Source: Ligustrum vulgare (Eukaryota; Streptophyta; Magnoliopsida; Lamiales; Oleaceae). From it: a stretch of 64,000 nucleotides of DNA. A program made the translations under genes and the position numbers. Below are positions 4,293 through 59,001 of the stretch, piece after piece (the first letter of the stretch is position 1; every line of letters starts with the position of its first letter). Under the pieces are notes generated by a model. The model was not told the origin of the DNA and made no database searches. It saw only the letters and a list, made by a program, of their open reading frames with translations. The DNA is taken from the NCBI GenBank assembly GCA_963555705.1, contig OY743168.1, positions 24,248,139 through 24,312,138 on the forward strand, given 5' to 3'.

Positions 4293-4536
4293 CATAATCA
4301 TAACTTTTTGTTGCCTTTTGATCCAAGCAAAGAGTAGAAATTCTTCCTTTATAGTTGTCCCTTTCAACTTCTGTCCTTCACTCCAGATATCTCTCTGATA
4401 TGATATCCTCTTCTTTCTATCTCTATCGCCCTCCATGTGCCTACCCCTACGCTCACCCCTCTCCTTTTATAATTCAGCATTTCACTCTTTCACCGTTTCA
4501 CCTACCTTCTTCTTCTCTGAAAGGCGAAAAGCCATT

Positions 4537-5925
4537 ATGGAAACTCAACAAAATCATCATCATCATCAACAGCAGCAGCAGCAGCAGCAGCAAGGAAATG
4601 AAGATGGGGGGAACAAAAGCAGTAATTTTGTATCCAGGCAAAGCAGTACGAGGTGGACACCCACCACTGAGCAAATAAGAATCTTGAAAGAACTTTACTA
4701 CAACAATGGAGTTAGGTCTCCAACTGCTGAGCAGATACAGAAGATCTCTGCCAAGTTGAGGCAGTACGGCAAGATTGAAGGCAAAAACGTTTTTTACTGG
4801 TTTCAGAACCATAAAGCTCGTGAGAGGCAGAAGAAACGCTTCACTAGTGCTGCTACTCCTGCCTCTGATGATGTCCCCATGCACAACAGATCACCTGCTG
4901 CTGGTGTTTGGAAATACCATCAAGATCATCTTTTCCCTAACAATCTTTCTGCTGCTGCTGGTCTATATTTCAATTTCTCAAGATCCCACCATCTCTTATA
5001 TTAGATGCTCATATAGTGATTAGGGTTCTTGCATGACATCAAGGTTTTTAAGGGTTTTCTAATTTGGTGTATTTTATGTTCAGGTTTTCCATCTTCATCA
5101 AGTTCTTCTCCTGGTGTGCTGAATATTGGCCCTGTGGGATACCCTGGCTATGGATCTGTAGCCATGGAGAATAGTTTTAGAGTTAGTACACTGATCTTTA
5201 ACCTGTTTATCACATATTGATAAAGAGTATACATTTGTTTATGGAAAATAAAAATGAAAAGGAGTCTTTTCTTTCCCAAATAGAGGAAGAAATTACCATG
5301 AAGAAGAAAACCCCTAAATTTATTGGTGCAAAGAAGCCTTAAGAAGAACACGCATACAGGAAGAAATATTACGTTTTTTTTTTTCTCTAGAAAATGAACC
5401 TTGATGGTGATTTTTCAGTGTATTGAATTCAAGTTTTCAGGGTTAATTACTATGAAAACTCGTTTACAATTAATGTGCAGTTTATAGAAATATACAAGTT
5501 TTGACCAACAGTACAGGTCTCTCTCTCTTTAATTCCATTCCATTTCTTGAATTCAAATAATCTAGGACTGTTCCATATCTCCAAGTGTTGATGGCAATGG
5601 ATCTGGTATGAGTCAAAACTTTGAACGGATCGGAGTCGACCCATATTCTTCCGGAGGAGGCTACCACCCATTTCTTGAAAAAAGAAAGTATGTCGATTAT
5701 GGAACCCTGGAAAATGGACAGCATGAGGAAGAACAAGTCCCAGAATTTGAAACTCTCCCTCTTTTCCCCATACAAGCTGAACACGCTTTCAAGCAAGAAA
5801 CTAACTTGTACAATGGCTGGCATTATGATCCGAGAGCCGGAGATAACAACATCGGCTCGTCTCGGGCTTCCGGCCTCGAGCTCACCCTCAAATCCTACTC
5901 TGAAAGATTGTTTAATTCTCCATGA
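4537..5925 (+). CDS. WUS: WUSCHEL homeodomain transcription factor, three exons
   Basis: Proposed exons are 4537-4960, 5084-5181 and 5566-5925, giving 293 residues; Arabidopsis WUS has 292. The protein starts METQQ, followed by His (7-10) and Gln (11-19) runs. The WUS-type homeodomain is at about 38-102 and includes [15 protein letters not shown]. An acidic patch lies near 228-236, the WUS box TLPLFP at 237-242 and an EAR-like LELTL at 278-282. WUS is the nuclear regulator that maintains shoot stem cells, mainly by repression through the WUS box and EAR motif. Exon joins preserve the frame. Exon 3 opens with DCSIS, like the conserved MEQDCSM-type region. The 4537 ATG has A at -3 and G at +4. 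An in-frame ATG at 4435 would add 34 unconserved residues in poor context. An alternative intron 1 donor at 4904 is also in phase and would give 274 residues; both donors are weak beyond GT. Confidence 0.93.
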
Positions 5926-7200
5926 AATGTTACGAAGGATTCTATCTTGCTTTATTTTTCACTTTTTAGTTTCTATAATGTTTAGCTAATGCAAAGGGTG
6001 TTCTCTAAATCAACTTTTAATATTATATATTGCAAGGTTTGATTGGAGTAATCAATTTCAGTTTATCACTTCTCTGTCTGTCTGTCTCTTGAGTGTGTGA
6101 AATCAACTTGATGTCTCCTGCCTCATTTACTTCATTTTGGTAAGCAAAATAAAATGCGACAAAAATTGGCGAGAATAAAAAAATTGAACTACTCATATAA
6201 TTAATGTTGTATTTTGGTTGATTATGCCTATGTTATTTAACACAATCATTATAATTAATAGATCAATTTATAAATGACCCAATTTTTTAAATTACTTTTT
6301 AATTAAATATAAATAAACTAATTTATAATTGCTACAATATTACAGAACTGAGTCTATATTATTAATGAACAATTTGTTTAAATTTTTATACATTCGTTTA
6401 TGAGTATCTAATGTCCTGAAAATCTAAAATTTACTGGATAAAAGGTTGAACGCCAACCTTAATTAGGCGCCCCATTCGTTCATGAAGATTGATAGATAAT
6501 GTAAATCGCATGTTATGTTCCAATATGAGTATTATGGGTTTTGGTCTTTTGGAGGTCTAAAATGTAGAAAGTGATCACAGACTATTTTATCTGTGATCAA
6601 TTCCTTACCATTAGGGTTTCCTGGCGTCGTAACTTGAGATTTAGTATCCGTTTAGTAAACTTGTTTATAAATAAATTTATAAATAATACATTTTTTCAAA
6701 TTAATTTTAATTACACCCATTTTCCAAAATCACTTCTCAACCACATATTTTACCTCAAAAATATCATTTTTTTAATATTTATAATCAATTTTTTTATTTT
6801 TATTTTTTATTTTTATCAAACAAAGCCAGGCCCTATCAATTTAAGGTTTCAATGTAAGATATCATAAATTTGTATGGACGATCGACAATCTCTATTCAAT
6901 TAACACGAGTATACAGTATACTCGGTGATCCTTTGCTCCATATTAAGCCTATGATTGAAAATTTGATTTTTAGTAAATTTTGATAAAAGTTGATGTAATA
7001 TGTGGTTAAAAAGTTATAGGTCCCACAAAATATGTAGTCGTAATTAATTGTTGACTTTAATTATATTAAAATTCGAATTGAAATCAACACCATTCAGGGG
7101 TAAAGTTTCATAAGTCTATACAACTTAGCATGATAGACAATCGATTAATTAACACGAGTACTCGATGATCATTTGCTCTGTACGTCTTCGGCTATCCTAC
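5926..7200. other. WUS downstream intergenic region
   Basis: This is AT-rich DNA with no supported gene. It contains one copy of the dispersed AT-rich repeat (about 6650-6775). It also has a 45-60 bp imperfect direct repeat, at about 6875-6930 and 7130-7178, sharing the words attaacacgagta and tgatcnttttgctc-like sequence. A polyadenylation signal for WUS was not assigned with confidence. Confidence 0.4.
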
Positions 7201-10728: not shown

Positions 10729-11404
10729 GTATTCTTAGCTTTATCAAACATACCATCCATCCTTGTACCAAGGGAAAAATACACAAACTACGTGTTTACA
10801 AAATCACATTTTAAATGTAAAGAAATAAGTTTAATATATATATATATAATATTCCCCCGCCCGCCCGCCCCACCTCCACCGTCGCCACCGCCACCACCAC
10901 TGCCACATCTTCTATGCACCATCACAATCACCCACCATTTTTGACGTATTGTCACCACCACGCACAACCACCACCACCACAACAATTACCATCATCTCCG
11001 ACGCACCACCACAGTGCCCTTTGAATATCATCTTGCTTCGCCACCCACTCTTTCAACAAAAAATAAACAAACTCAACCAATTAAATCATAAAAAAAAATG
11101 CTGTCTATTTTCAGAATTGAGAATCCAGAAGAAGAAGAAGATCTGAACTATTAAGTGTGACCAATTCTTTTAGATCCGTTACCGGTTGAAATTGAAATGT
11201 GACCAATGAAAATGACTTTTGAACATCAACATATAAATTGTGATATGTAACCTTAAAGTGCAACATGTGAACTGTTATTTATAATCTGCAATATATAAGC
11301 TGTGACGTAACCTTAAAATGCGATATGTGACCTGAAGTATGAATCATGACCCGTGACTGTGACCTGAACTATTAAATGCTTGAATATATGTCCTATTAAA
11401 ATTG
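10729..11404. repeat. CCACC-rich tract and TGTGACC-type degenerate repeats
   Basis: At about 10855-11010 there is a C-rich, purine-poor tract of ccgccc, ccaccacc and cgccacc words; open frames in it are low complexity. From about 11155 the words tgtgacc, tgtgaacc and cgatatgtgacc recur at short, irregular spacing. The same type of array resumes at 20744, on the far side of the LTR element, so the element inserted into this repeat. Confidence 0.5.
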
Positions 11405-11409
11405 ATACA

Positions 11410-14400
11410 TATAGCGACTCAGAATTTTTATACAATAAATAATTATTTTAATATTTAGAAAATTGTGTCGCTACTATTTCATTTATTATTTTGAAGTTAA
11501 CGCCGCGACGGATTCGTCTAGCCAAGTCAAGAAATATCGAATTCGTTCGATTTTAAATTAAAATCCGAATTTCTAAAATTATATTATTTTAACTATTTAT
11601 TCAAAGTATTATTTTCAAAATGTATTTTTCAGTCAAAAATATATCTGTTTTAAAAACGTTTCTTGATCAAAGATAGTTAAATTTTTAGTTGATTTCATCC
11701 CCCATGTTTTCTCCTCCTTTCTTTTCTCTTTACACCAAATCCATATCATATTAAACCAAATTATAATTATTCCATTCAATGATTTTATTCCCCACTAACT
11801 CCACCACCCGTATGTATTCATTATGTTGCAAGAACATAATGATTATATTCTCCATTATCATCTATTTCACCACCACTCCATTATACATGACACCACTCCA
11901 TTATACATGATGAAAGCTGCAACCACCAGCGCTACTGCAATTCTCATCTGCACCAACATCAATCTGCCTCATCACACCACCTCCGTTAATCAGTCCTCAT
12001 CACCAACCACTGTTTCATCACTACCCAAACCACCTGCACAACCCTTCAACCAAGCTACTGATCAGCCACCACCACCACTGCAGTATTACCACAACCGGCA
12101 CCATTTCAACCACCAAACCATTCTCAGTAAAAGCACCACAGCCACTGCAGTCCCCTTCCGCAGCCAGAACCGAACAACCACCAACACCGAGCTTCAAATC
12201 GCCACTGCCCATTTCACCTTCACCCAAATCAAACTCCCCAAAACCCAAAATATTACCAAGAACTCTAACCCAGTTACCTACCTCTACCGTCGACCATTTA
12301 TGGTCGGATTCTCCACCGGAAGTCCCGACCTGCAGCCCCGGTTTCACCTCGAATCAGCACCCAAGCCCTAAAATCAGAAACCTTGCTTTGGCCACCACTT
12401 ACCGCAACCTGCGCCGGCTACTTCGCCGGCGAATCACCGGCAGTGTCACTCGTTCGTTCCTCGCCTGATTTCACTGATGAAATCGCAGAGAGAGTGCTGA
12501 GTGAAGAGAGAGTGAGAACGAGAGAAAGAGAAGTGAGAATGGTAGAGAGAGAGAGTAAATCTGAGTATATAATTAATTTCGGAAATTTGCATTTTGGTCC
12601 CTGAAGTTTTAAAGTTATTTCAAATCAGTCCCTATGTTTTAAAAAAAGGTTTTATTTCAGTCCTTTCATCTTTTAAACTTATCAATTTCAGCCCTTAAGT
12701 TTTAAATGATTTTATTCAGCCTTCATTTTTAAAATATATTATTTCAACCCTATTGTTTTGAGTTTCCGACTCAACTATCAAAAGTATTCATTTTAATCCC
12801 TCAACTTTCAAAATATCTATTTTAGTCCCTGAACTTTCAAAAGTATTCATTTTAGTCCCTCAACTTTCAAAACATCAATTTTAGTCCTCAAATTATAATT
12901 TATCATTTTGAACTATATATTCGATATACTAAAGTGACTTATTGGCTAAGACGAAGCGTACGGAGAATTTAAAGAAATTGAAGTCATTCCCGCTCAACTT
13001 TGCACTCGTCGGATTTGAGGTAGACTCGCACTTATTAATTGATTTAAATTATGATTTCATATAAATGTCATGTGACTTGTGAAAGTCAATTTTTATGAAA
13101 AGAAAGTATGTTTTTATGACAAGTAAGTATGTTTTTATGAAAGATAAATATACCTTATATTTTTATGAAAAGTAAGTATGTTTTTATGAAAAGAAAATAT
13201 ACTTTATGTTTTTACGAAAAGTAAGTATACCCTATGCTTCACGAAAATGTTTTTTTGGATCATTGCTATGAAATCAATCTACCAAGATTGTTTTGGGTCC
13301 CATATGATAAGTTATGATATGTTAAGGGGACCGGAGTTTTAGTAGCGCTACACATAAGAATTCTTGCCACCTAAGTTCGGTAACATTCTTGTGTCTCCTA
13401 TGTTTATGAGGATTTGCCACGAAGTTCGGTAAAATTCCCATGTTTCCATATGTTTATGAGGATTTGCCACCTAAGTTCGGTAAAATTCCTGTCGCATATG
13501 TTTATGAGGATTTCGATCCTATCTTATGTTATGATGCAATTGATCCCTATGAATTTCAGAAAATTATGCTTGGTATACTTACTACATAAGAATTCTTACC
13601 ACCTAAGTTCGGTAAAATTCTTATGTTTATGAGGATTTCGATTTTATCCTATGTTATGATGAAAACTTACTGTTATTATGATTTTACTACATAAGAATTC
13701 TTACCACCTAAGTTCGGTAAAATTCTTATGTTTATGAGGATTTCAATCCTATCTTATGTTATGCTTTCAAAAGAAATTATGCTTGGCATAATTAAAATGT
13801 TTTTATAAGTATATGGTTTTCAAAGAACTGTTTTCAAAGAGAGGTTTTCAAAGAGCATATGATTTGCAAAATATGTCCCGTGCTGTAATGCACATTATGA
13901 GTTTTATCAAGAGCTGTTTTATAAAGAAGCTCTATCAATGCCCGTTTTATAAAGAGCCGGGATTTATGTGTTTAATCATCTTATAAATTAAATTAATTTG
14001 CGATGAGTCTACTGAGTATTTCCCCAATGAAATACTCACCCTACTTTTTAACAGTTTTGCAGATTTCGGAGACGGTGGCGAGCGATGAATGATGGTGGCA
14101 ATAATCGTTGAACGGTTGAAAGTTTGACGTTAATGATTTCCGTATTTTCCAAACAATCGAATAATTTAGAGAAGTTCATTTATTTGAGAAATTATGATAT
14201 TGGCAATTTCTTTACAATATTAATGGTTCGATTTACTATTTCAAATGGTTTCATAAATGTTTTCAATTTTAGCGGCCATTACAGTTTATTTAATGTTGCC
14301 AAAAATGAATTTCAATTATTTCTTCCGCAAAAATATTATTCGAAAAATTTAGACAGAAAATGACGTAGTGAATCGGGTATACGGAACTCGGGGCGCTACA
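11410..14400 (+). repeat. 5' LTR of the cargo retroelement
   Basis: This 2991-bp repeat begins TATAGCGACTC and ends GGGGCGCTACA, so its tips (TATAGCG/CGCTACA) are nearly inverted. Inside are a CACCACC-rich block (about 11860-12100), a block of ttttagtccctcaactttc words (about 12590-12900), and tandem cctaagttcggtaaaattc units (about 13345-13745). A 182-codon frame at 11823-12371 is low complexity and is not considered a gene. Confidence 0.95.
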
Positions 14401-14403
14401 AGT

Positions 14404-14415
14404 TGGTATCAGAGC
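14404..14415 (+). other. Primer binding site, tRNA-iMet type
   Basis: The sequence tggtatcagagc lies three bases after the end of the 5' LTR. It is the standard plant LTR-retrotransposon primer binding site complementary to the 3' end of initiator methionine tRNA. It fixes the element's orientation as plus and shows that reverse-transcription signals are preserved. Confidence 0.93.
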
Positions 14416-15360
14416 TAGTCTGCGTTTCTGTAGACTGGAAAAATTTTCAAAAAGAATTTTCAAGAAATATTTCCATTATAAAATTTTATTGATGAAGATT
14501 GCCACTGCCATCATTCGTTCCACCAACTCCGAGGTAAAGAAGTTTATGATGTTTAAAGTTATTTCAGTATTTCGAATACTCATTTTATTGATTTATGAGA
14601 AAGAATGAAGAGTATTTCGGATACTTATGATTTATGAGAAATAAGAATGTATTTCTTCGAAAATAATGATGTTGTTATGCTTTGTCATAACTTATATGCT
14701 TTAATGTATGATTATGAGAAATTTTTTTAAAGAAAACGAGTGTTGAGCATAATGGGAATAATATGACTTTATTGAGAATTAAGTAATGGATATTATGTTG
14801 AGTTAATTTATTATGCCTCTATGTTGAAGAGAAATTTATTATGAAGTTTGGCTTTGTGAATAAATTTTGGGAATATGATTTATGGCATATATTTATAAGT
14901 ATGAGTAACTTTTGAGCCAATTAAGGTATGAAAGGAAGTAATATTGTGATATTGAAAAATATGATTTGAAATTTCTATGTTGAGGAATTATGAATTGAAT
15001 TATGGGATATTTTGATGATATTGAAGTGTTGGAATCGTTTTCAATATTTTTAGATCGTTGTGATCAAATGTGGAGTTATTTATTATTGTGAGTTATGAAG
15101 TATGCTTATGGTTTGGATAAGTCCAAATTACAAGGGAGACTCTATCCAGAATTTTATCATTTGGAATTAAGAGCATAATATGATAAGCATCTACTAAAGG
15201 AATTAAGTTTAGACATGCAAGTTCATTTACATCAAACGAGATTTAGTAGATGATAACAGAGATTTTATTATTTTCTCATAAGGAGAACACACAAGAGTCA
15301 CACTGGAAAGGAAATACATGAAACACATGAAAGCATAAGAGAAAAACATGGAAGGATCCT
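14416..15360. other. Internal non-coding leader of the cargo element
   Basis: AT-rich DNA lies between the PBS and the LOG 3' flank. No gag-like frame is seen. An open frame at 15227-15502 on the minus strand overlaps the imperfect tandem repeats and has no recognisable domain. Confidence 0.5.
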
Positions 15361-15364
15361 CAGA

Positions 15365-15600
15365 ATGAGAGATGTGTTTCCGGAGTAGCCGTATCCTACC
15401 ACCTCTGATCTTTTGAGGAAATAAAGAAACCTTCAAAGAGGTGTGTTTCGAGAGTAAGAATACTCCGTAATCTACCACCTGGAATCTTTGAAGTACACAC
15501 AAGATTTAAACATTAAGGAAATCCTAGTAAATGGAGGGGTGTCTCGAGAGTGAGAATACTCCGTACTCTACCCCCACCTATTCTAAGATTCAAAGAGTTA
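15365..15600. repeat. Three imperfect tandem units at the LOG 3' side
   Basis: Three copies of an element of about 60-80 bp are seen near 15370-15435, 15440-15500 and 15534-15600. Each has gtgttt(c)gaga or gtgtttccgg, then aatactccgtan(t)ctacc, and ends in a tctttgaag/attcaaag-like word. They start just beyond the LOG stop codon (15590), partly overlap it, and would lie in the 3' UTR of a minus-strand LOG transcript. Confidence 0.6.
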
Positions 15601-16243
15601 AGTTTACATTAACCGGACTCCATTTTCGCTTGATTCCCCTTCCTTGCGACCAATCTATCTTAACCCCTGCTGGATCTTGTATTGAGATATATGACTGCAG
15701 CTTATCCAGTAGTTCATCAATAGTAGGAGCAGAAATAAGAAGCCTTCTGGAAAATGGAGAGATGAATCCCTGTTCCACAGCATAATCAAGAAAGGTTAAC
15801 AAACCATCAAAGAAATTGTTAACATTCAGAAGCCCAATAGGTTTAGTATGGAGATCTAGTTGAGCCCACGAGGTAATGTTAAAAATTTCTTCTAAGGTAC
15901 CAAAACCTCCGGGCAGGGCAATAAAGGCATCAGAACCATATAGCATACAAGTTATGCGTTCATGGATGGATAAAGTTTGAACTTCATGCCCTCGTGTTTT
16001 GCCTGCAACATCTACCAAAGGGACAGGTATAACACCGATTACTTTTGATTTCTCTGCAAGAGCAGATTGGGAAACACAACCCATTAGACCACTGCTACCA
16101 CCCCCATACACAAGAGTGATACCTTTTTCCCCCAGTTTCTTTCCAAGATCTACAGCCGCTTCTAGATAACCGAAGCCTTTCCCTACTTTTGATCCACAAA
16201 ATACACAAATAGTTTTGATCTGTCGAAGTTTTGGTGCTTCCAT
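15590..16243 (-). CDS. LOG-family cytokinin riboside 5'-monophosphate phosphoribohydrolase, intronless
   Basis: The intact frame encodes 217 residues, the usual size of plant LONELY GUY (LOG) proteins. LOG enzymes release active free-base cytokinins from riboside monophosphates in the cytosol in one step. Visible motifs are CGS at 16-18, VYGGGSSGLMG at 45-55, HER at 94-96, and the signature PGGFGTLEE at 111-119 with its catalytic Glu (119) and the Arg of HER (96). The residue after that Arg is Ile rather than the usual Lys. The rest aligns along its length with plant LOGs (SWAQL, GLLNV, EQGFISP, SAPT), but looks clearly diverged. Plant LOG genes normally have several introns; this copy has none, so a retrocopied or virus-like origin is inferred. 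It lies antisense inside the LTR element, with its own TATA-like box 75 bp upstream. Substrate and activity are untested. Confidence 0.9.
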   Translation of the reverse strand: MEAPKLRQIKTICVFCGSKVGKGFGYLEAAVDLGKKLGEKGITLVYGGGSSGLMGCVSQSALAEKSKVIGVIPVPLVDVAGKTRGHEVQTLSIHERITCMLYGSDAFIALPGGFGTLEEIFNITSWAQLDLHTKPIGLLNVNNFFDGLLTFLDYAVEQGFISPFSRRLLISAPTIDELLDKLQSYISIQDPAGVKIDWSQGRGIKRKWSPVNVNLTL

Positions 16244-16317
16244 CTTTGATAGTAAAGAAGGGAAAACTTACGAAGAAGATGTGATTTTGGGATGCCTGAA
16301 CTATGAAATATGTTTGG

Positions 16318-16327
16318 CTATTTAAAG
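16318..16327 (-). promoter_or_regulatory. TATA-like box of the LOG cargo gene
   Basis: On the minus strand the sequence reads CTTTAAATAG, about 75 bp upstream of the LOG ATG. This spacing suits a transcript with a 40-45 nt leader. The same CTATTTAAA core (read on plus) occurs before the neighbouring cargo gene. Confidence 0.5.
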
Positions 16328-16328
16328 C

Positions 16329-16331
16329 CGG

Positions 16332-16362
<31 letters not shown>

Positions 16363-16570
16363 ACTGTTTTTGATTGATTCTGAAAAAGTAAAGATTTACT
16401 TTTGACAAAATCAGCCCACTTTTGAATATTTTTATCGTATCGAGGCTGTCACCTTTCGGCGATTTAATATTTATTTCCAGCTTTATCAAACCTCGAGAAA
16501 GGAAAATATATTTATTTCCAGCTTTATCAAACCTCGAGAAAAGAAATATATATTTTATTTCCAAAACGCG
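16329..16570. repeat. Poly(A) run and 40-bp tandem repeats between the cargo genes
   Basis: A run of about 29 A lies at 16331-16359 (poly-T on the cargo strand). It is followed at about 16465-16560 by two near-identical units containing tttatttccagctttatc and aacctcgagaaa, with a third partial unit. The tract lies in the 370-bp spacer between the 3' end of the zinc-finger gene and the LOG promoter. It could be a relic of a polyadenylated insertion or simple slippage. Confidence 0.6.
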
Positions 16571-16610
16571 TGAAAGAAAGCAGCAAAATATTTTAAAAAA
16601 AAGATTTACC

Positions 16611-17162
16611 TTATATCATTGCTGAACTGCCAGAAGCCTCATTTTGTAAAACAGACTGGCAAACAGGATCTTTCGATATTATATTTTGGAGACTATAACG
16701 ATTTTTGTCCTCGTTAAACTGAGCGTATAAGGAGAGAAGTTCACGTTGTACATAACCACTTGGGTGCGTCTCAAGAGTCAGTCGAATATCATCCAAAGAC
16801 TCCTTACTCAGTCCACCCTTTATGAATTCGATTTTATCATCCCGATTAGTAGAAGAATATCCTACTGATTTGCAACGTGTATTACAGTTCCAACGAGCAC
16901 ATTTGTAGCAACCACCCAGTCTTTTTGCTCTTCGTTTCTTTGCGAACGTGCTTTTGCCTAAACCAGGCATATGTTTTGGAAATGTTGATGGTAATTCACC
17001 AGATAGTCGAACCTTTGCTTCTATCAACCAGCGAACATCTTCTGGAATATCATGAGCCATTAGCAACCTCAATCTTTCGAGCCTTATTTTATAGATCTTT
17101 CTCAGATCATTCATAGGAAGACTGGAATAATACTTGCGAATGTTAGAAAGAATGATATCCAT
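16611..17162 (-). CDS. Basic zinc-finger protein resembling Betaflexiviridae nucleic-acid-binding proteins
   Basis: The intact frame encodes 183 residues from the ATG at 17162; an in-frame TTG five codons earlier is ignored. Residues 1-60 are helical-looking and unassigned. A Gly-Lys-Ser followed by a dense Arg/Lys stretch lies at about 69-81, leading directly into a Cys-x2-Cys-x4-Cys-x3-Cys cluster (C85, C88, C93, C97). An Asp-Lys-Ile-x-Phe-Ile segment follows shortly after. This order (basic motif, compact Cys cluster, then a hydrophobic FI/FV segment) is what small cysteine-rich proteins of carlaviruses and vitiviruses show; some of those bind nucleic acid and suppress RNA silencing. The similarity is from recognition, not a search, and the N- and C-terminal parts are longer than in those viruses. 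It lies antisense in the LTR element, upstream of and co-oriented with the LOG gene. The function here is unknown. Confidence 0.65.
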   Translation of the reverse strand: MDIILSNIRKYYSSLPMNDLRKIYKIRLERLRLLMAHDIPEDVRWLIEAKVRLSGELPSTFPKHMPGLGKSTFAKKRRAKRLGGCYKCARWNCNTRCKSVGYSSTNRDDKIEFIKGGLSKESLDDIRLTLETHPSGYVQRELLSLYAQFNEDKNRYSLQNIISKDPVCQSVLQNEASGSSAMI

Positions 17163-17194
17163 TGTTTGATGATTCAACCTCTTCCCAGCATGAA

Positions 17195-17205
17195 CTATTT
17201 AAAAG
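17195..17205 (-). promoter_or_regulatory. TATA-like box of the zinc-finger cargo gene
   Basis: The plus-strand word ctatttaaaag lies only about 33 bp upstream of the ATG at 17162. If used, the transcript would have a very short leader, or translation might start at the downstream in-frame Met17. It shares its CTATTTAAA core with the box upstream of LOG. Confidence 0.45.
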
Positions 17206-17734
17206 CGCAAAGGATCTGAGTGAATCCGCGTGATGTTGTGACCAGCAAGAAAGCGCAGGATTATTTTAATGAAAAGAGGAGACAAGAAGTAATGCGCTGT
17301 TAAATTTTATCGATAAAGGAGATTTGATTGGAGATTTGGAATATTTTCTTGGATTATGGGTACTGATATTTTGTTTTAATAATGATAATCTTGGTATAGT
17401 GTGATGATACGTGAAAAGTAAAATGAGTACCGTATTGAATCAGAATTCATACGTATATACAAGTGAAAGAAATACTTTGCAGGAAATGTGGTGACATTTA
17501 AGTGTAGAATCTTAGTTTTGGGAGATATTTATTTACTGAATTTTGAGTTACAAATGTTGGAAAGATAAGTTGATGATTTTATGTTGATATGTTTGGGTAT
17601 ATTACGTAGAGAAAATATTCAGGTAATTCTTTGATTATTTTGAGAATATTCGATAATAAGAAGAAGAGATTTTGATTAAGTATTCAGAAATGATAAGATC
17701 AAGTAAGTTTAATTTCGAGGACGAAATTATTTTT
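17206..17734. other. Non-coding 3' interior of the cargo element
   Basis: AT-rich DNA lies between the zinc-finger gene promoter and the polypurine tract. No remnant of integrase or chromodomain coding sequence was recognised. The last 40 bases (aatttcgaggacgaaattat) resemble the conserved untranslated end of Tekay-like elements. Confidence 0.5.
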
Positions 17735-17747
17735 AAGGAGGTAAGAT
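17735..17747 (+). other. Polypurine tract
   Basis: The sequence aaggaggtaagat directly precedes the 3' LTR. This is the position and composition expected for the plus-strand primer of reverse transcription. Confidence 0.8.
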
Positions 17748-20738
17748 TATAGCGACTCAGAATTTTTATACAATAAATAATTATTTTAATATTTAGAAAA
17801 TTGTGTCGCTACTATTTCATTTATTATTTTGAAGTTAACGCCGCGACGGATTCGTCTAGCCAAGTCAAGAAATATCGAATTCGTTCGATTTTAAATTAAA
17901 ATCCGAATTTCTAAAATTATATTATTTTAACTATTTATTCAAAGTATTATTTTCAAAATGTATTTTTCAGTCAAAAATATATCTGTTTTAAAAACGTTTC
18001 TTGATCAAAGATAGTTAAATTTTTAGTTGATTTCATCCCCCATGTTTTCTCCTCCTTTCTTTTCTCTTTACACCAAATCCATATCATATTAAACCAAATT
18101 ATAATTATTCCATTCAATGATTTTATTCCCCACTAACTCCACCACCCGTATGTATTCATTATGTTGCAAGAACATAATGATTATATTCTCCATTATCATC
18201 TATTTCACCACCACTCCATTATACATGACACCACTCCATTATACATGATGAAAGCTGCAACCACCAGCGCTACTGCAATTCTCATCTGCACCAACATCAA
18301 TCTGCCTCATCACACCACCTCCGTTAATCAGTCCTCATCACCAACCACTGTTTCATCACTACCCAAACCACCTGCACAACCCTTCAACCAAGCTACTGAT
18401 CAGCCACCACCACCACTGCAGTATTACCACAACCGGCACCATTTCAACCACCAAACCATTCTCAGTAAAAGCACCACAGCCACTGCAGTCCCCTTCCGCA
18501 GCCAGAACCGAACAACCACCAACACCGAGCTTCAAATCGCCACTGCCCATTTCACCTTCACCCAAATCAAACTCCCCAAAACCCAAAATATTACCAAGAA
18601 CTCTAACCCAGTTACCTACCTCTACCGTCGACCATTTATGGTCGGATTCTCCACCGGAAGTCCCGACCTGCAGCCCCGGTTTCACCTCGAATCAGCACCC
18701 AAGCCCTAAAATCAGAAACCTTGCTTTGGCCACCACTTACCGCAACCTGCGCCGGCTACTTCGCCGGCGAATCACCGGCAGTGTCACTCGTTCGTTCCTC
18801 GCCTGATTTCACTGATGAAATCGCAGAGAGAGTGCTGAGTGAAGAGAGAGTGAGAACGAGAGAAAGAGAAGTGAGAATGGTAGAGAGAGAGAGTAAATCT
18901 GAGTATATAATTAATTTCGGAAATTTGCATTTTGGTCCCTGAAGTTTTAAAGTTATTTCAAATCAGTCCCTATGTTTTAAAAAAAGGTTTTATTTCAGTC
19001 CTTTCATCTTTTAAACTTATCAATTTCAGCCCTTAAGTTTTAAATGATTTTATTCAGCCTTCATTTTTAAAATATATTATTTCAACCCTATTGTTTTGAG
19101 TTTCCGACTCAACTATCAAAAGTATTCATTTTAATCCCTCAACTTTCAAAATATCTATTTTAGTCCCTGAACTTTCAAAAGTATTCATTTTAGTCCCTCA
19201 ACTTTCAAAACATCAATTTTAGTCCTCAAATTATAATTTATCATTTTGAACTATATATTCGATATACTAAAGTGACTTATTGGCTAAGACGAAGCGTACG
19301 GAGAATTTAAAGAAATTGAAGTCATTCCCGCTCAACTTTGCACTCGTCGGATTTGAGGTAGACTCGCACTTATTAATTGATTTAAATTATGATTTCATAT
19401 AAATGTCATGTGACTTGTGAAAGTCAATTTTTATGAAAAGAAAGTATGTTTTTATGACAAGTAAGTATGTTTTTATGAAAGATAAATATACCTTATATTT
19501 TTATGAAAAGTAAGTATGTTTTTATGAAAAGAAAATATACTTTATGTTTTTACGAAAAGTAAGTATACCCTATGCTTCACGAAAATGTTTTTTTGGATCA
19601 TTGCTATGAAATCAATCTACCAAGATTGTTTTGGGTCCCATATGATAAGTTATGATATGTTAAGGGGACCGGAGTTTTAGTAGCGCTACACATAAGAATT
19701 CTTGCCACCTAAGTTCGGTAACATTCTTGTGTCTCCTATGTTTATGAGGATTTGCCACGAAGTTCGGTAAAATTCCTATGTTTCCATATGTTTATGAGGA
19801 TTTGCCACCTAAGTTCGGTAAAATTCCTGTCGCATATGTTTATGAGGATTTCGATCCTATCTTATGTTATGATGCAATTGATCCCTATGAATTTCAGAAA
19901 ATTATGCTTGGTATACTTACTACATAAGAATTCTTACCACCTAAGTTCGGTAAAATTCTTATGTTTATGAGGATTTCGATTTTATCCTATGTTATGATGA
20001 AAACTTACTGTTATTATGATTTTACTACATAAGAATTCTTACCACCTAAGTTCGGTAAAATTCTTATGTTTATGAGGATTTCAATCCTATCTTATGTTAT
20101 GCTTTCAAAAGAAATTATGCTTGGCATAATTAAAATGTTTTTATAAGTATATGGTTTTCAAAGAACTGTTTTCAAAGAGAGGTTTTCAAAGAGCATATGA
20201 TTTGCAAAATATGTCCCGTGCTGTAATGCACATTATGAGTTTTATCAAGAGCTGTTTTATAAAGAAGCTCTATCAATGCCCGTTTTATAAAGAGCCGGGA
20301 TTTATGTGTTTAATCATCTTATAAATTAAATTAATTTGCGATGAGTCTACTGAGTATTTCCCCCATGAAATACTCACCCTACTTTTTAACAGTTTTGCAG
20401 ATTTCGGAGACGGTGGCGAGCGATGAATGATGGTGGCAATAATCGTTGAACGGTTGAAAGTTTGACGTTAATGATTTCCGTATTTTCCAAACAATCGAAT
20501 AATTTAGAGAAGTTCATTTATTTGAGAAATTATGATATTGGCAATTTCTTTACAATATTAATGGTTCGATTTACTATTTCAAATGGTTTCATAAATGTTT
20601 TCAATTTTAGCGGCCATTACAGTTTATTTAATGTTGCCAAAAATGAATTTCAATTATTTCTTCCGCAAAAATATTATTCGAAAAATTTAGACAGAAAATG
20701 ACGTAGTGAATCGGGTATACGGAACTCGGGGCGCTACA
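17748..20738 (+). repeat. 3' LTR of the cargo retroelement
   Basis: This 2991-bp copy of 11410-14400 differs by eye at only two positions: one C/T near 13440/19778 and one A/C near 14029/20363. It ends GGGGCGCTACA, followed by the TSD ATACA. Confidence 0.95.
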
Positions 20739-20743
20739 ATACA

Positions 20744-22752
20744 TGACCAAAGGGTTTTATGACTTGTGACCTTTTACGTGTGACCTCCAACATATAGAAT
20801 GTGACATGTGACCTTAAAATGCGATATGTGATCTGAAGTATGAATTGTGACCCGTGAACTACGCTATTCAGTGTGATTAGTTTTCTTGGATATGTGTCCT
20901 GCTAATATTGACAACCAAAGGGTTTTATGACATGTGACCTATTTAGTGTGACTTACAAAGGGGTTTTATCACTTGTGATTTATGACTTATGTGTGAACTG
21001 TTACATGTGACTTGCAACCCATTAACTATGACACATGAGCTCAAAGTACGAAATATGACTAGTTTTCTTGGATTTGTGTCCACAATCCAATTGCAGCCAC
21101 AGTCGGTTCTTGACCACCACTGGTCACAACCTCCTCCTTCACACCAAACCAACATCGCTACCTCCTCAAGCGTGCACACCTCCAACTCCAACCAGCCAAC
21201 ACTAGCTCCATTCCCACCACAGCAAATAACCACCGCAACCTTTGCATACCACCGTTTCCACCGCAGCCCGCACCCAACCTAAAATTGCTGCTAGCCCCAA
21301 CCAACATCACCGTCATCCCTCACCATAACTAACCATTGTATTGGCAAGTTGTGCCGCTAATCCATAGTATCAGTAAGAAGATGACCTTCGAAGAAGATAC
21401 CGCGAAGAAGATGATCGTCGTATCAGCCACAAAGACGATGACACTCAGTTCCGACCATCGATCTTACAATCAACACCGTGAAGATGGGTTTGGGCTTGGG
21501 TGGTCGATGTGAAGATGTTGACCAGAAGATTCAAGTTGTCGCTATGGTTCGGATGCAAGCCGATGGCCGTCTTCCTCAGTTGCAGTGGCGCAACTACAAC
21601 TGCAAGAGCCTCGGTTGGCCATTTCTCAGATGGCCAAGAACGAGGGCGAGGGTAATTACATTATATTATTTATTAAAATGAATTGACACCTGACAATTAA
21701 AAACTTAAAAACTTGTTTTTTGAATTGTTAAATATATAAACATGCTATAGTGTGATTATCACTTGTCCCAATCTCTTACCGGGGATGTACCAATTTGTTA
21801 TGGTGTAATTACCACTTGTCCCAATCTCTCACTTTTCAATCCCTATTATTTCGTTGAAAAGGAAAATCTCAAAGAAGAGTTTACAAGAAGAATAGAGTCA
21901 TGTTCACTGACTCAACAGAGCGTACAATTATTGCTTTAACACGTTGCATATATACACATATCCAGAACAAATATTTCCTTCGCATATCAGCAAATTGAGC
22001 CATCTAACTGACAAGTGGGCCAATGATGTGGACTTGACCTATGGAGTATAAGATTTGATTTATCAAAACTAACGCCGTGATTTTCAAATATCGAAGGGAT
22101 TAACAGACTTAGAATTATAATTCATCTAAGGTAGATCAGCATACAAGTACTAGCTCGTCTCTCCCTCGAGAAAGAGTAATTCTTTGCCTTAATTACTTTA
22201 TTTATAAACATTTTATGTCTCGTTGTCTCAAGATCTTTTATATCATGTATAAGTTTGTCGAAAATAAGTTGATCATTTTGAAAAAAAAAAAAAAATATTC
22301 AATTAAGCCTTTATTCATACGTTGTAGAAACAGAAAAGGTCCCAGTCAACAAGATTTTATGTGGATATTTTTCTTCATTTGGATTGACATTTTTGCACAC
22401 TTGTAGGGTTCTTATGAACACTAATGCAAAATGAGGACAGTGAAGGGCATGCATGGGATGGAGCCTGCACGTGTAAACAAAGAATAAATTGATGAATGAG
22501 GAAATTCTGAACAATGCTTCTTTTCTCAGTGCGTGGATTTATGGAGATTTTCATTTTAGTTTTTGTGGGATTCAATGATGAAATCTTTCAAACTTTTTAA
22601 GGGTTTCAGTACGTAATGTCTTCTACAAGTAAAAAGTGAACCATCACATTGTGTCTTTTTCTTTTTTCACTCTTTTAACTTGGTCAGTTTAATCAACTGT
22701 TTGTCTGGTGCAGTGTTGTATTAATTCATGAATTATGGTTTATGTATAAATG
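20744..22752. other. Resumed TGTGACC repeat array, CCACC-rich tract and intergenic DNA
   Basis: From 20744 to about 21060 there are three spaced copies of accaaagggttttatgac followed by tgtgacc words. This is the same repeat type as left of the LTR element. A C-rich tract follows (about 21100-21260). The rest, to 22752, has no supported gene; short frames lack domains. Confidence 0.45.
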
Positions 22753-30159: not shown

Positions 30160-33100
30160 TTATTGAAAATAGTGACGAAGGTGATCTGTGTTCCAAGGAT
30201 TACACAAGGGTACCCCGGATAAATCTTCAATTATGTATGTACGAGGTACCACCTCGGCTGTGATCTTGTAAGGGCCTTCCCAGTTGGGACCCAAAGTCCC
30301 TACTCCCGGTTCCTGAGTTGAAGGAAGAACCTTTTTTAGGACTAGGTCCCCAATATTAAAGCGTCGCCCTTTCACCCTTTTATTGTAGTACCGGGCCATC
30401 TTTTCCTGGTATCTGGCCATCACCACTTGAGAATCGTTCCGTTTCTCCATGAGGAAATCCAAACCGGCCCTTTGTACTTCTTCATTTCTCACTTCGTCGT
30501 AATGGATTTGACGAAGCGAAGGGATCCCAATTTCAATGGGGCATACCGCCTCGGCTCCATAGGCCAGCGAGAAGGGTGTTTCACCAGTAGCGGTGTGCGA
30601 GGTGGTTCGAAGCGCCCATAACACATGTGGTAGCTCGTCTACCCACGCGCCCTTTCTGAATTCCAACTTCCTTTTCAGGGTATTTTTTATGGTTTTGTTC
30701 ACCGCTTCGACCTGCCCGTTGGCTTGCGGGTGGTGCGGAGATGAGAACAGCTTCCTGATTCTCAAATCGTCACACAACTCATCCACGCTTCTGTTTTTGA
30801 ACTGTTTTGCATTATCACTAACCAGCGAATGTGGTATTCCGAACCGGCATATGATATTTTTCCAAATGAATTTGGTGGTGTTGGCCTCGGTGATCTTCAT
30901 CAAAGGTTCCGCTTCGACCCACTTGGTGAAGTAGTCAATCGCTACTATCTGGAAGCAATTGTTACCAGCTCCTCTGGGCATAGGACCAATAATGTCAACC
31001 CCCCACTTTGCAAAGGGCCAAGGGCTAGTCACCACAGTTAGCTCGTGGTGCGGCTGATGCGGTATGGTCGCGTGTCTTTGGCATTTATCACATTTTCGCA
31101 CAAAGTCATGGGAATCCTTTCGCATAGTAGGCCAAAAATACCCCTGTTTGAGGGCTTTTCGAGCTAGCGATAAAGCCCCGGCATGGTTGCTGCATATGCC
31201 CTCATGGATTTCTTTCATTACATACTGCCCTTCCTCTAGCCCCACACATCTCAGCAAAGGAGAGGTGTAACTCCGCTTATAAAGTAAGTCGTACAGGAGC
31301 ACGAAGTTCGCAGAGTATTTCTGCAATTTCCGGGCTGCTTCGGGCTCGTTCGGAACTGTCTGATGCTTTAAATAGACGATTAGGGGGTTCATCCAGGATC
31401 CCTCTTCTTCAATCGCCAGGATTTCCGGTCCCGACTCAATAGAAGAGGTCATCATGTGCTCTACAGGGATCAGATTGTGGAGCTCCGAATCACTGCTGCT
31501 TGCCAGTTTTGCCAAAGCATCAGCGTTGGAATTTTCTGTTCTGGGGATGTGCTGTAACTCCATTTTTCCGAAGTGCATAGCTAAATCTTTTACTTTCTTC
31601 AAGTAAGCGACCATAGAAGGTTCTTTGGTAGAAAATTGCCCATTGAACTGGCTTACAACAAGCTACGAATCGCTGTTCGCCACCACGGACTTAATTTTCA
31701 ACGCTTTTGCAAGTCTTAGCCCAGCCAATAGCGCCTCGTACTCAGCAATATTGTTGGAGGCTTTGAATCCAAAGCGGATTGCACTGTGTAATTTAAACCC
31801 TTCTGGGCTTACTAACAGTATTCCTGCGCCGGATCGTACATCAGTCGAGGACCCGTCAACGAACAATTTCCACTTATGTCCATCATGTTGGCTGTCCTCG
31901 GTGTTGTCTACCATTTCGACCTCAGGTGGATGGGTGAATTCAACTACAAAGTCTGCCAACGCCTGACCCTTTACGGCGGTCCGAGGCGCATAATGTAGGT
32001 CGAACTGGCTGATTTCTATCGCCCATTTCAGTAACCTCCCAGAAACGTCTGGTTTTTGCAACACTTGTCTCATGGGAAAGTTGGTGAGCACTTGTATGGA
32101 GTGTGACTGAAAGTAAGGACGAAGCTTACGAGAGGCTGTGATCAATGAGAGAGCAAGTTTTTCCATATCTGGGTAGCGCGTCTCGGCGTCCAGCATGGCT
32201 TTGCTTACATAATATACTGGCAACTGGTTCCCATCCTCCTCTCGGATTAGCACCGAGCTAACAGCCTCTTTGGATACAGCCAAATATAGGTAGAGAGGCT
32301 TGCCAGATTTTGGTTTTGATAGTAATGGGGGGCGGCCTAAAGAGGCTTTCAGGTCGGAAAACGCCTGTTCGCATTCTGGTGTCCATTGGAATTGCTTTCC
32401 CCCCTTCAGGACCTTGAAAAATGGCAAGCATTTGTCAGTGGATTTTGAGACGAACCGGTTTAAGGCCGCGATCCTCCCCGTTAAGCTTTGCACTTCTTTT
32501 GGGTTTCGAGGCGACTGCATGTTTAACAAAGCATTGATTTTGTCCGGATTGGCTTCGATTCCCCACTTATTCACCATGAATCCGAGGAATTTCCCAGATG
32601 CTACCCCGAAAGCACACTTTGCCGGATTGAGTTTCATCCGATATCTTCTCAAAACATCAAATGCTTCTAACAAATGGAGGATATGATCAGCGGCGACCAT
32701 GCTTTTGACTAACATGTCGTCAACGTACACCTCCATAGTGTTCCCCAATTGTTTCGAGAACATGCGGTTTACCAGCCTCTGATATGTAGCTCCCACAATC
32801 TTCAAGCCAAATGGCATAGCTCTGTAGCAATAGAGCCCTCTATCTGTGATAAATGAAGTATGCTCTTCATCCGATTCGAACATAGGAATCTGATTGTACC
32901 CGGAATATGCATCCATGAAGCTTAGCAACTCGTGTCCCGCTGTGGAGTCGACCAGTTGATCAATCCGGGGCAATGGAAAGCTATCTTTGGGACATGCCTG
33001 GTTCAAGTTGGAAAAATCAATGCACACCCGCAATTTCCCATTGTGTTTTGGTACTAAAACAGGGTTTGATACCCACTTCGGATATCGAGACTCTCTTATG

Positions 33101-35301: not shown

Positions 35302-36130
35302 TTCGTACGACGGCAGCTCGCTGTTCTCGTCATGACCGGAATACTCCGGATCACGGTATTGGCCATAGCGTACTCCTGCCCTTGCGGTGGTGGAACGCGG
35401 CCGTAGTTTGACCTTTCATGGCTCTGTAACTCATTGCGAGTATTAGTCCGAATTGCTTCGGCTCTTCTTTCTTGCCTACTCCTAGGCTCATGTGCTGATG
35501 CCATCCTTTCTCCCCCATACCTCGTTGGTTCCTGTACATTTGACCCTGTGATAAGGCTTCTTCAGCGTGTCGCTCGCGCCTATTTCTAGGCTCTGCGGCA
35601 TTGTGCCGACCTGGGTCCGTTTGTCCCCGTCGTTGTCCCCTGAATAACCATCCTATTCGGCTAAAAACACTGCCGGAATTTGCGGGAGAAGCCTCCCTGC
35701 GTCCAGCTGGTGGTGGGTTTTGTTCCTCATGTGTTTCATGTTCTGGGTCTCGCTCGTAGAAAGGTTCGGATTCCACTTCGGCGTATGCCTGCGGGTCCTG
35801 ATAATAATAAGATACAGTGGCCGCCTCAGATGGTGAATAATGTGGCTGTGAGTATTGCTGAGGCATCGCAGGTTCGTTCACAGCATACCCTCTGGCCATA
35901 AAGGCATTCATTGCAGCAGTTTGTTCTATTTGCTGCCTCTGCATCTCCAGCATTTGGGCCGCCATGAGTGTCATGTCTCGCATCATGCGGCGATTTCGGC
36001 GTCGACGAGGTGGATTAGGTTGTTCCACCTCCTCGTTGGCGTTTTCATGGAGTTCTTGAGGAACTTCGTCCTTGCTGTTTCGGCCACTTCTTCCCCTACG
36101 GGGGTTAACATCACCATCACTTTCATTCAT
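35302..36130 (-). pseudogene. Tat gag N-terminal region with frameshifts
   Basis: The frame starting MNESDGDVNPRRGRSGRN is basic, with a Met/Gln-rich helix (about residues 50-80) typical of Tat gag leaders. Near 35510 the likely reading moves to another frame (MASAHEPRSRQERR), and near 35350 to the frame used by the main polyprotein. At least two indels therefore separate this part from the rest of gag. Confidence 0.75.
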
Positions 36131-36199
36131 GTTTCAAAAGAATTTCTGGTCTTATCTTGCTTTTCAAGGATAGATAGGCCGTTGTCTTGTTACTTCAAA

Positions 36200-58800: not shown

Positions 58801-58990
58801 TCTAGCCATTTCAAGAATATATCTGACTCCACATAATTTGAGCACATAGCCAGTATCAAATTTTAAAGTGATATCACCAATCCCAGCAATTTTATAAGCA
58901 TGGTTATTACAGAGAATAGCATGACCACTTTCAGATTCTTGCATATTTTCAAACCAATTCTTATGAGATGAAACATGAAATGATGCACCA
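55861..58990 (-). pseudogene. Copia pol: protease, integrase, reverse transcriptase, RNase H
   Basis: Protease ILDSGASFH is near 58985, then the GAG-pre-integrase HKWHNTLAHVS...CDHCVLGKHHKLSF. Integrase follows from FLSIIDDFSQKVWV, with the RTDNGLEF motif; its third catalytic position reads QQNGVAGCMN where GVAER is usual, so the Glu is lost (codon at 58129-58131). RT has QLDVKTAFLHG and LYVDDMLL. RNase H has GFTDADYAGD...STTESEYIA. Stops interrupt one common frame after EF (58444-58446), after YYQ (56872-56874) and after FLH (56675 region). A pair of compensating frameshifts lies between about 58383 and 58465. It is clearly inactive. Confidence 0.92.
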
Positions 58991-59001
58991 GAATCAAGTA
59001 T

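Follow-up and report, generated by a model that had tools for sequence, protein, structure and literature searches.

A young and abundant gag-pol-less LTR retroelement family in Ligustrum vulgare with two antisense genes that appear to be under purifying selection

Within a 64,000-nucleotide stretch of the Ligustrum vulgare genome (the window), an LTR retroelement unit at positions 11410-20738 was analyzed. The coding content of the 3347-bp interior between its LTRs consists of two antisense intronless genes, for a putative LOG-type enzyme and a basic zinc-finger-like protein (NABP). At the sequence level, the copies in the source genome show that the element is a very young and very abundant family that was recently inserted, and both genes appear to be held by purifying selection. 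We consider it fairly probable that this is a young amplified non-autonomous LTR family moved in trans, whose two-gene cassette is kept via its effects on host cells.

Element architecture and encoded proteins

The paired LTRs, TSD, PBS and PPT that characterize an LTR retrotransposon were all located (Table 1), which bears out the first-pass annotation in describing the unit as mechanistically complete in cis. The PBS is of the initiator tRNA-Met type, and the first 16 bases of the interior are identical in 19 of 21 copies and one base off in each of L013 and L015. The unchanged non-coding stretch is leader on the plus strand and lies downstream of LOG on the minus strand; its neighbourhood is likewise poor in variants. 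Both antisense frames, which had been described as intact and provided with TATA-like boxes, are indeed open, and the TTTAAATAG box upstream of each was kept in every copy compared. A bacterial promoter scan was uninformative for plant DNA. The same annotation had seen no retroviral gene between PBS and PPT; in agreement with this, seven gag-pol sequences used as queries, six of them taken from gypsy and copia elements of the window and one from the plant contig L001, had no tblastn match in the element with an E-value below 0.25, and Pfam at E 0.1 gave no match in eight of the 30 other internal frames (at least 40 aa) or in two LTR frames.

Table 1. Features of the retroelement unit (positions in the window)
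Feature	Position	Strand	Evidence or remark
TSD, left copy, ATACA	11405..11409	.	sequence comparison
5' LTR, 2991 bp, ends TATAGCG...CGCTACA	11410..14400	+	
Primer binding site (PBS) TTGGTATCAGAGC	14403..14415	+	
Unchanged non-coding stretch, 158 nt	15059..15216	.	invariant across 21/21 interiors compared
LOG-type cytokinin riboside 5'-monophosphate phosphoribohydrolase (putative), 217 aa, intronless	15590..16243	-	Pfam, PDB match, AF2, Foldseek
TATA-like box TTTAAATAG, -83 nt from LOG ATG	16318..16326	-	21/21 copies
A28 tract (coding strand: T28), immediately upstream of LOG box	16332..16359	.	
NABP, basic zinc-finger-like, 183 aa, C-x2-C-x4-C-x3-C	16611..17162	-	Pfam PF05515 and PF01623, homologues
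TATA-like box TTTAAATAG, -41 nt from NABP ATG	17195..17203	-	21/21 copies
Polypurine tract (PPT) AAGGAGGTAAGA, adjoins 3' LTR	17735..17746	+	spotted by eye
3' LTR, 2991 bp	17748..20738	+	2 differences vs 5' LTR (identity 2989/2991)
TSD, right copy, ATACA	20739..20743	.	sequence comparison

The earlier assignment of the first gene as LOG-like agrees with the Pfam family (Lysine_decarbox, E 1.3e-33), a sequence match to PDB 2a33 (E 1.6e-57), the predicted fold (AF2 model with pLDDT 86.7; Foldseek against 2a33, TMt 0.95) and the presence of the PGGxGTxxE and GGGxxGLMG motifs, which relatives have in 107/120 and 98/120 cases, respectively. We infer that this gene encodes a LOG-type enzyme with a cytokinin-activating function. 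A C-terminal basic patch plus LxLxL (EAR-like) was found in 93/120 of the relatives' LOGs and in 0/120 host LOGs. The LOG of the window does not qualify as carrying an EAR motif, because the strict LxLxL is absent and its C-terminus, VNVNLTL, is degenerate; the tail region is disordered in its model.

NABP, read from the ATG at 17162 that is common to relatives rather than from the TTG at 17177, exceeds the Pfam cut-offs of both Viral_NABP (PF05515; E 3.3e-7, 30.9 bits, cut-off 23) and Carla_C4 (PF01623; E 4.7e-6, 26.9 bits, cut-off 20.9). The L001 NABP clears only the first of the two profiles (cut-off 23). Among 120 NABP relatives, the cysteine pattern of Table 1 was present in 105 and a basic patch in 109, and none had the carlavirus spacing C-x2-C-x12-C-x4-C, which the relevant part of PMC8839810 gives for the zinc finger behind the basic patch of the carlavirus protein. 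The AF2 model of NABP (pLDDT 64, pTM 0.36) was too poor for use in a fold search. Given the match to carlavirus proteins, NABP may plausibly have a function in the nucleus or in silencing, but its Cys spacing differs from theirs.

Relatives of NABP are present in both asterids and rosids, and homologues of LOG and NABP in other plants show about 50-70% protein identity. Three Orobanche gene models contain NABP and LOG as a fusion. Screening with the NABP pattern returned 49 stretches with 0 relatives in IMG/VR, and 41 stretches with one relative in GTDB genome contigs. This relative, L001, is a plant contaminant in which NABP lies downstream of an Athila-like integrase. Judged by these sequences, the gene pair or its members recur elsewhere, and once, in L001, within a retroelement. 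NABP and LOG matches were also noticed by eye on contigs of equal size (8723, 4511, 2128), a hint of linkage only; equal-size matches of 873, 905 and 1018 were dropped as unable to hold both genes, and those of 1558 and 1514 were not used.

Copies and selection in the source genome

As the first-pass annotation had suggested, the source genome (1.385 Gb) was searched with the interior. Forty interior copies were scored (identity 96-100%, 38 covering at least 3339 of 3341 bases), all aligning across the same gag-pol-less interior, whose length is 3280-3385 bp in the 21 copies compared. A LOG 30-mer has 3558 exact occurrences genome-wide and the LTR-PBS junction 2004, with 0 for the reversed-pattern control of each. 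All of the 150 best-scored hits listed for the LOG protein, and likewise for NABP, are open and equal to the window protein (at least 150 copies each). In 46 copies read, which were chosen by similarity to the window and not randomly, each of the two frames is open in 45. Neither of the outcomes that the annotation had named against its proposal, a single-copy interior or gag-pol in other copies of the family, was seen among the forty scored copies.

All seven LTR pairs with both ends visible are 0 to 2 substitutions apart, and five element copies, including that of the window, have five different TSDs. Tandem arrays of the element are present. LTRs are more variable than the interior (mean 1.6% over 900 LTR bases vs 0.75% in non-coding interior; 20 copies vs the window). 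Only 25 of the first 100 LOG 30-mers on contig C1 have an exact junction within 2.5 kb, and many copies are therefore diverged or cut at the junction end. Up to 47.35 Mb of the same contig, 32 LTR-PBS junctions were found, with the LOG 30-mer at most 2.5 kb downstream in 25 and absent in seven. Probing of three of these seven with 401-bp pieces revealed a LOG variant (L058) and two different interiors (L056 and L057) that look non-coding where sampled, one of which runs into LTR sequence of the family after about 3.2 kb (L059); no autonomous gag-pol partner was seen at these three junctions.

In 26 copies picked on DNA, pN/pS was 0.026 for LOG and 0.24 for NABP, with 17 synonymous and 6 nonsynonymous distinct variants in the former and 13 of each in the latter. 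Compared with the mutation spectrum of the family's own non-coding sequence, replacements are depleted in both LOG (p = 1e-6) and NABP (p = 0.0034). When 20 copies were picked on LOG alone, NABP showed 28 synonymous and 20 nonsynonymous variants (p = 3.5e-7), and the same copies had 20 distinct LOG nucleotide sequences encoding one LOG protein. Mean pS between copies ranged from 0.012 to 0.055, varying with gene and set, and replacements were few; between the NABPs of the window and L001, dN was 0.28 and dS 1.34. Since the non-coding leader is as variant-poor as LOG (0.030 and 0.031 distinct variants per base, respectively; NABP 0.044), conservation per se is no argument here and only the synonymous/nonsynonymous split counts. 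This split suggests purifying selection on both open frames, the pattern that had been proposed as the mark of a maintained system. The virus-like package and the change in hormone and RNA-silencing state that the annotation had also envisaged go further than these data.

Candidate explanations for the retained genes

According to the explanation that we favor, the gag-pol of another element would move the family in trans, and LOG and NABP would each be transcribed from the box in front of it, without need of the LTR. LOG could free active cytokinin and so yield more dividing, germ-line-competent cells, and NABP might enter the nucleus and dampen silencing or activate proliferation genes, by analogy with carlavirus cysteine-rich proteins. 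Copies in cells so altered would be inherited more often, so that the cargo would stay selected without any use in reverse transcription. Across the wider family, the LOG basic patch and LxLxL could recruit TOPLESS-type corepressors, a motif that is degenerate in the window copy. As trans-moved cargo should serve all copies alike, selection per copy would need cis-preference, cell-level linkage or host selection.

It is possible, though in our view unlikely, that an autonomous ancestor took up NABP and LOG as accessory genes, that both were selected there, and that they now hitch-hike passively in a gag-pol-less form that burst so recently that the frames have not yet decayed. The near-identity of the seven LTR pairs and the place of NABP behind the L001 integrase would fit such a history, as would the LOG-like extra ORFs that Athila-type elements reportedly have (Steinbauerova 2011). 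However, the copies differ at synonymous sites with few replacements and the 21 interiors all lack gag-pol; constraint thus seems to have been active while the gag-pol-less form diversified, unless interiors were repeatedly exchanged. Such exchange, by gene conversion or recombination, is invoked by an improbable explanation at the host level, in which some copies supply useful LOG or NABP functions and the rest are homogenised. The many identical proteins and the tandem arrays speak for it, and the greater variation of LTRs than of interiors is what interior exchange would yield, but thousands of copies far exceed the need of any host function, and conversion would also homogenise silent sites, whereas 20 LOG nucleotide sequences encode one protein. 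A regulatory role of the antisense transcripts on the element, with incidental coding potential, is very improbable: the relevant part of PMC7264820 does discuss that plant LTR elements are transcribed in antisense and that dsRNA may play a role in this, but the depletion is specific to replacements in both genes, homologues in other plants are conserved as proteins, and the predicted LOG fold is intact, all of which favors constraint on the proteins. A chance chimera or assembly artefact can be dismissed, given whole-interior copies on many contigs, five element copies with five different TSDs, the scored interiors, 30-mers, junctions and identical proteins counted above, and NABP-LOG fusions in another genus (Orobanche).

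Beyond the favored explanation of a trans-moved family kept via its effects on host cells, we tentatively propose a split of labour, in which gag-pol elements copy and a numerous gag-pol-less partner carries a plant-acting module of a cytokinin-activating enzyme and a plant-virus-type nucleic-acid-binding protein. The LOG tail of many relatives would serve nuclear import and corepressor recruitment, and the module would drive cells to a dividing, silencing-poor state where new copies get inherited. If true, the module would correspond in plants to the accessory genes of viruses, with an age sufficient for its occurrence in asterids and rosids, and would be a case of selection on elements unable to copy themselves. 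The usual expectation for non-autonomous elements is that their coding content decays; where a family has thousands of copies and its sole genes are under purifying selection, the question of who gains can be tested from sequence alone. Such a family would also link retrotransposons with hormone activation and with a protein family of plant viruses, and could explain why transposons retain genes that act on the host.

Comparison with known systems

Similar to LARDs and other non-autonomous LTR elements, the element has LTRs, PBS and PPT without gag-pol and needs mobilisation in trans. LARD interiors are known as non-coding, and a LARD in the strict sense is ruled out by the two selected protein genes. 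Steinbauerova et al. reportedly described in 2011 a pair of Athila-like elements whose extra ORF is LOGL4-like, and PMC9289625 cites that study for the YgdH domain; Athila membership was rejected for the present element, which has no pol, and only its NABP relative in L001 follows an integrase.

The first-pass annotation had called the arrangement unusual, which does not hold for LOG domains or antisense ORFs in LTR elements as such, both already published (relevant parts of PMC9289625 and PMC7264820). LOG (YgdH) domains occur in several Ty3/gypsy consensuses of Citrus and Populus, likewise inside LTR retrotransposons; these were found via the reverse-transcriptase domain, unlike the gag-pol-less element here, and the YgdH section of PMC9289625 describes no NABP partner, LxLxL tail, antisense cassette or selection test. 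Antisense extra ORFs (aORF-3R) are given for Grande, RIRE2, Retand and PvRetro13 in the relevant part of PMC7264820, where gene23 of Grande is reported to have its own promoter. Their orientation is that of the genes here, but they sit behind pol and ahead of the 3' LTR in elements that have gag-pol, and are without clear homologues, whereas the antisense genes here are the sole genes and come from known families; with no pol in the element, assignment to this class was rejected. We found no report in the literature of NABP, the NABP-LOG pairing, the LOG tail or a family that lacks gag-pol and carries selected cargo; PMC9040795, PMC4029996 and PMC12440569 contributed nothing on LOG or NABP. 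In a major survey of plant LTR elements, extra ORFs were counted from 250 codons upward (relevant part of PMC6317226), a threshold exceeding both genes, and such cut-offs can conceal genes of this kind.

NABP shares with its carlavirus counterpart the profile match and a basic stretch directly before a four-Cys cluster, and differs in Cys spacing, greater length (183 aa, against 11 kDa for the C protein of the jasmine virus in the relevant part of PMC8839810) and location on a retroelement. Finally, Ty3/gypsy elements of orchids with an AlkB-like m6A demethylase also keep an extra enzyme gene over several subfamilies; as the relevant part of PMC9289625 describes them, they are about 25 kb long, Tat-related and equipped with gag-pol, and their enzyme activity was shown, whereas the LOG here is known from sequence.

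Structure and coding content of the element

The first-pass annotation described an LTR retroelement whose interior holds two genes in place of gag-pol, and its coordinates proved right: paired LTRs, TSD, PBS and purine run were all located. The LTRs, of 2991 bp each, differ at two positions, the TSD is ATACA, the PBS starts two bases past the 5' LTR, and the purine run adjoins the 3' LTR upstream. The two intact antisense frames that had been claimed were both found in the 3347-bp interior. One encodes a cytokinin riboside 5'-monophosphate phosphoribohydrolase-type protein (LOG) of 217 aa, which matches Pfam Lysine_decarbox (E 1.3e-33) and, in both sequence and fold, the solved Arabidopsis At2g37210 structure. 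The other, a basic Cys-cluster protein (NABP) of 183 aa from an ATG at 17162, has Viral_NABP and Carla_C4 matches that exceed the curated Pfam cut-offs. TATA-like boxes had also been proposed for both genes, and TTTAAATAG boxes lie upstream of both in 21/21 copies. In agreement with the claim that the interior has no retroviral gene, no gag-pol trace was detected in the element by Pfam, run on eight of 30 further interior frames as well as on two LTR frames, or by tblastn with seven gag-pol queries, all of which worked outside it (six found their own loci, and the seventh found a gypsy element of the window).

Features of the window
Feature	Position	Strand	Remark
WUSCHEL-type homeobox gene region	4399-5989	+	~5.4 kb upstream of element
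66-nt flanking repeat	11291-11356, 20792-20857		85% identical
Element	11410-20738		
5' LTR	11410-14400		
Invariant non-coding stretch	15059-15216		158 nt
LOG	15590-16243	-	
NABP	16611-17162	-	
3' LTR	17748-20738		
Ty3/gypsy element	30160-36133	-	gag and long pol frame; part aligns to L001 integrase (27.5%)
Ty1/copia-like element	55861-60054	-	by look of frames
LINE-like endonuclease/RT region	61465-63320	+	by look of frames

The invariant stretch has zero variants across 21 interiors and may serve in packaging or as a 3'-end signal. The flanking repeat may be one piece of a degenerate repeat that is local to the target site. From its translated homeodomain, we take the homeobox gene to be of the WUSCHEL type, a stem-cell regulator; its position next to a LOG-bearing element is probably due to chance.

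Copies, age and selection

Copies were surveyed in one genome, that of the source (1.385 Gb, 51 contigs). Searching it with the interior gave at least 40 copies of 96-100% identity (40 scored of 3897 first-look candidates), so the element is multi-copy rather than single-copy. Coverage is 3339 bases or more, out of 3341, in 38/40 scored interiors; the other two lack 63 bases near the end. The best 150 of 9447 LOG protein candidates and the best 150 of 8795 NABP candidates are all open and identical to those of the window. A total of 2004 exact 30-nt LTR-PBS junctions and 3558 exact LOG 30-mers were counted, with 0 hits for each reversed-pattern control. Only 25 of the first 100 LOG 30-mers listed on contig C1 have an exact junction within 2.5 kb; thus, many copies have diverged or been cut at that end.

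LTR pairs with both ends visible were obtained for seven among 21 copies; they are 0 to 2 substitutions apart, two pairs having a gap in addition. Matching TSDs, all different, were found in five of these seven, and the other two (L019 and L027) are members of tandem arrays. If each site changes at a rate of 7e-9 to 1.3e-8 per year, two differences in 2991 bp date the window copy to roughly 25,000-50,000 years. For L018, whose LTRs were compared in part, 3015 columns contain 23 mismatches and 5 gaps, unequal ends included; this copy may be older or rearranged.

Head-to-tail arrays with a period of ~6.1-7.1 kb occur at C14:29531753-29569302, C12:40051552-40067767, C10:6943084-6952994 and elsewhere, as if neighbours shared one LTR. 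A second subfamily (pieces L056, L057 and L059; elements at C1:9555507 and C1:29876929) has an identical LTR-PBS junction and another, non-coding-looking interior. Following the first of these elements for ~3.2 kb leads into LTR sequence of the family, and this element therefore likewise appears to lack gag-pol.

The proposed comparison of selection between copies was carried out on 46 copies picked by similarity to the window, not at random: 26 by interior DNA (the window, L010-L029 and L031-L035) and 20 by an identical LOG protein (L036-L055). LOG is open in 45/46 (L029 has an early stop), and NABP is open in 45/46 (the exception is L055). In the DNA-picked copies, LOG has a pN/pS of 0.026 and NABP one of 0.241, both averaged over non-independent pairs; distinct variants number 17 synonymous and 6 nonsynonymous in LOG and 13 of each in NABP. 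In the LOG-picked copies, where LOG is invariant by choice and NABP is free of picking, NABP has 28 synonymous and 20 nonsynonymous variants (ratio 0.167, likewise a pairwise average). As methylation of C may push up the silent count, we also ran a test controlled by the spectrum of 96 non-coding variants of the family (56 transitions; expected nonsynonymous fraction 0.75-0.76), counting a variant common to several copies once. The depletion of replacements in both genes survived this control (one-sided p: LOG (26) 1e-6; NABP (26) 0.0034; NABP (20) 3.5e-7). Distinct variants per base amount to 0.030 in the leader, 0.031 in LOG and 0.044 in NABP. Since the leader is as variant-poor as LOG and the 158-nt stretch is unchanged, it is solely the split between silent and replacement changes that argues for protein-level selection.

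Relatives of the two proteins

An LxLxL motif is present in the last 25 residues of 93 of the 120 nearest LOG relatives versus 0/120 host LOGs (found with Arabidopsis LOG3 as query), and a basic cluster accompanies it in 89/93. LxLxL behind a basic patch is the form that EAR motifs take. Tails of the KRKLDLTLRL type are found among the relatives. Outside the tail, LxLxL occurs in 3/120 relatives and 6/120 host LOGs. Many of the 27 relatives without the tail motif are shortened or one residue off. The tail of the window LOG, RKWSPVNVNLTL, is degenerate, as in its 93% identical relative P0121, and the region is disordered in the predicted model; P0124-P0126 have INLxLSL. PGGxGTxxE is conserved in 107/120 relatives and 108/120 host LOGs. 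In a tree of 77 relatives, including the window LOG, and 25 host LOGs from the sampled subfamilies, built without the tail ends, a 100/100 branch sets the host LOGs apart from all the others. Likeness, fusions and dispersed copies in some species suggest that these 120 proteins are encoded by elements. Two Xanthoceras gene models (P0122 and P0123) contain tandem LOG copies, perhaps merged neighbours.

The NABP search gave 349 relatives, of which 120 were listed, all with PF01623 by eye; sources include Orobanche, Striga, Populus, Xanthoceras and Acer, many lacking a species name. Three Orobanche gene models (P0017, P0018 and P0023) are NABP-LOG fusions with NABP first, and two of the three have the tail LxLxL. 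The sole DNA relative of NABP read outside the source genome is L001, a plant-type contig inside a bacterial MAG. This MAG is labelled Candidatus Nomurabacteria, and by content the plant retroelement DNA is public-genome contamination. L001 encodes an integrase of Ty3/gypsy type with Pfam matches to rve and Integrase_H2C2, which we take to be that of an Athila element. An intact NABP in sense follows ~200 bases past the integrase stop, and inspection by eye shows a TTTCTCTGCAG acceptor-like site ahead of it. This NABP therefore occupies the position of the env-like genes of Athila elements. No LOG-like frame was seen in the remaining 1 kb. Between the window and L001 NABP, dN is 0.28, dS 1.34 and pN/pS 0.375 (bootstrap 0.29-0.50).

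Possible propagation and comparison with known elements

Lacking its own gag-pol, the element must be copied in trans, and gag-pol supplied from elsewhere would do so. Judged by sequence, both of its proteins appear to point to cell state. LOG enzymes release active cytokinin in one step, and the window LOG, assigned to this family by sequence, would do so in the host cell. NABP, by its carlavirus likeness, would lower silencing or favour proliferation: PMC8839810 describes carlavirus cysteine-rich proteins as weak silencing suppressors and one of them as nuclear and tied to cell proliferation. A copy inducing division of its own cell, or less silencing there, would gain descendants along with that cell, which could keep the cargo under selection on a non-self-copying element. 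Alternatively, the selection signal may be inherited from an autonomous ancestor, or may reflect host-level use of the genes plus gene conversion.

A literature search covering few subscription papers found no carlavirus-like NABP in plant retroelements, NABP-LOG pair, LOG tail with basic patch and LxLxL, or gag-pol-less family with selected cargo. Steinbauerova 2011 reportedly found a LOGL4-like ORF in two Athila-like elements. That work is cited in the section of PMC9289625 on LOG/YgdH domains, which are reported there from Citrus and Populus LTR-element consensuses. Antisense extra ORFs of plant LTR elements have already been published (PMC7264820). A 2026 gene-capture review (PMC13317346) reports negative selection on captured LTR sequences in rice; on that account, selection on captured genes as such has a precedent.
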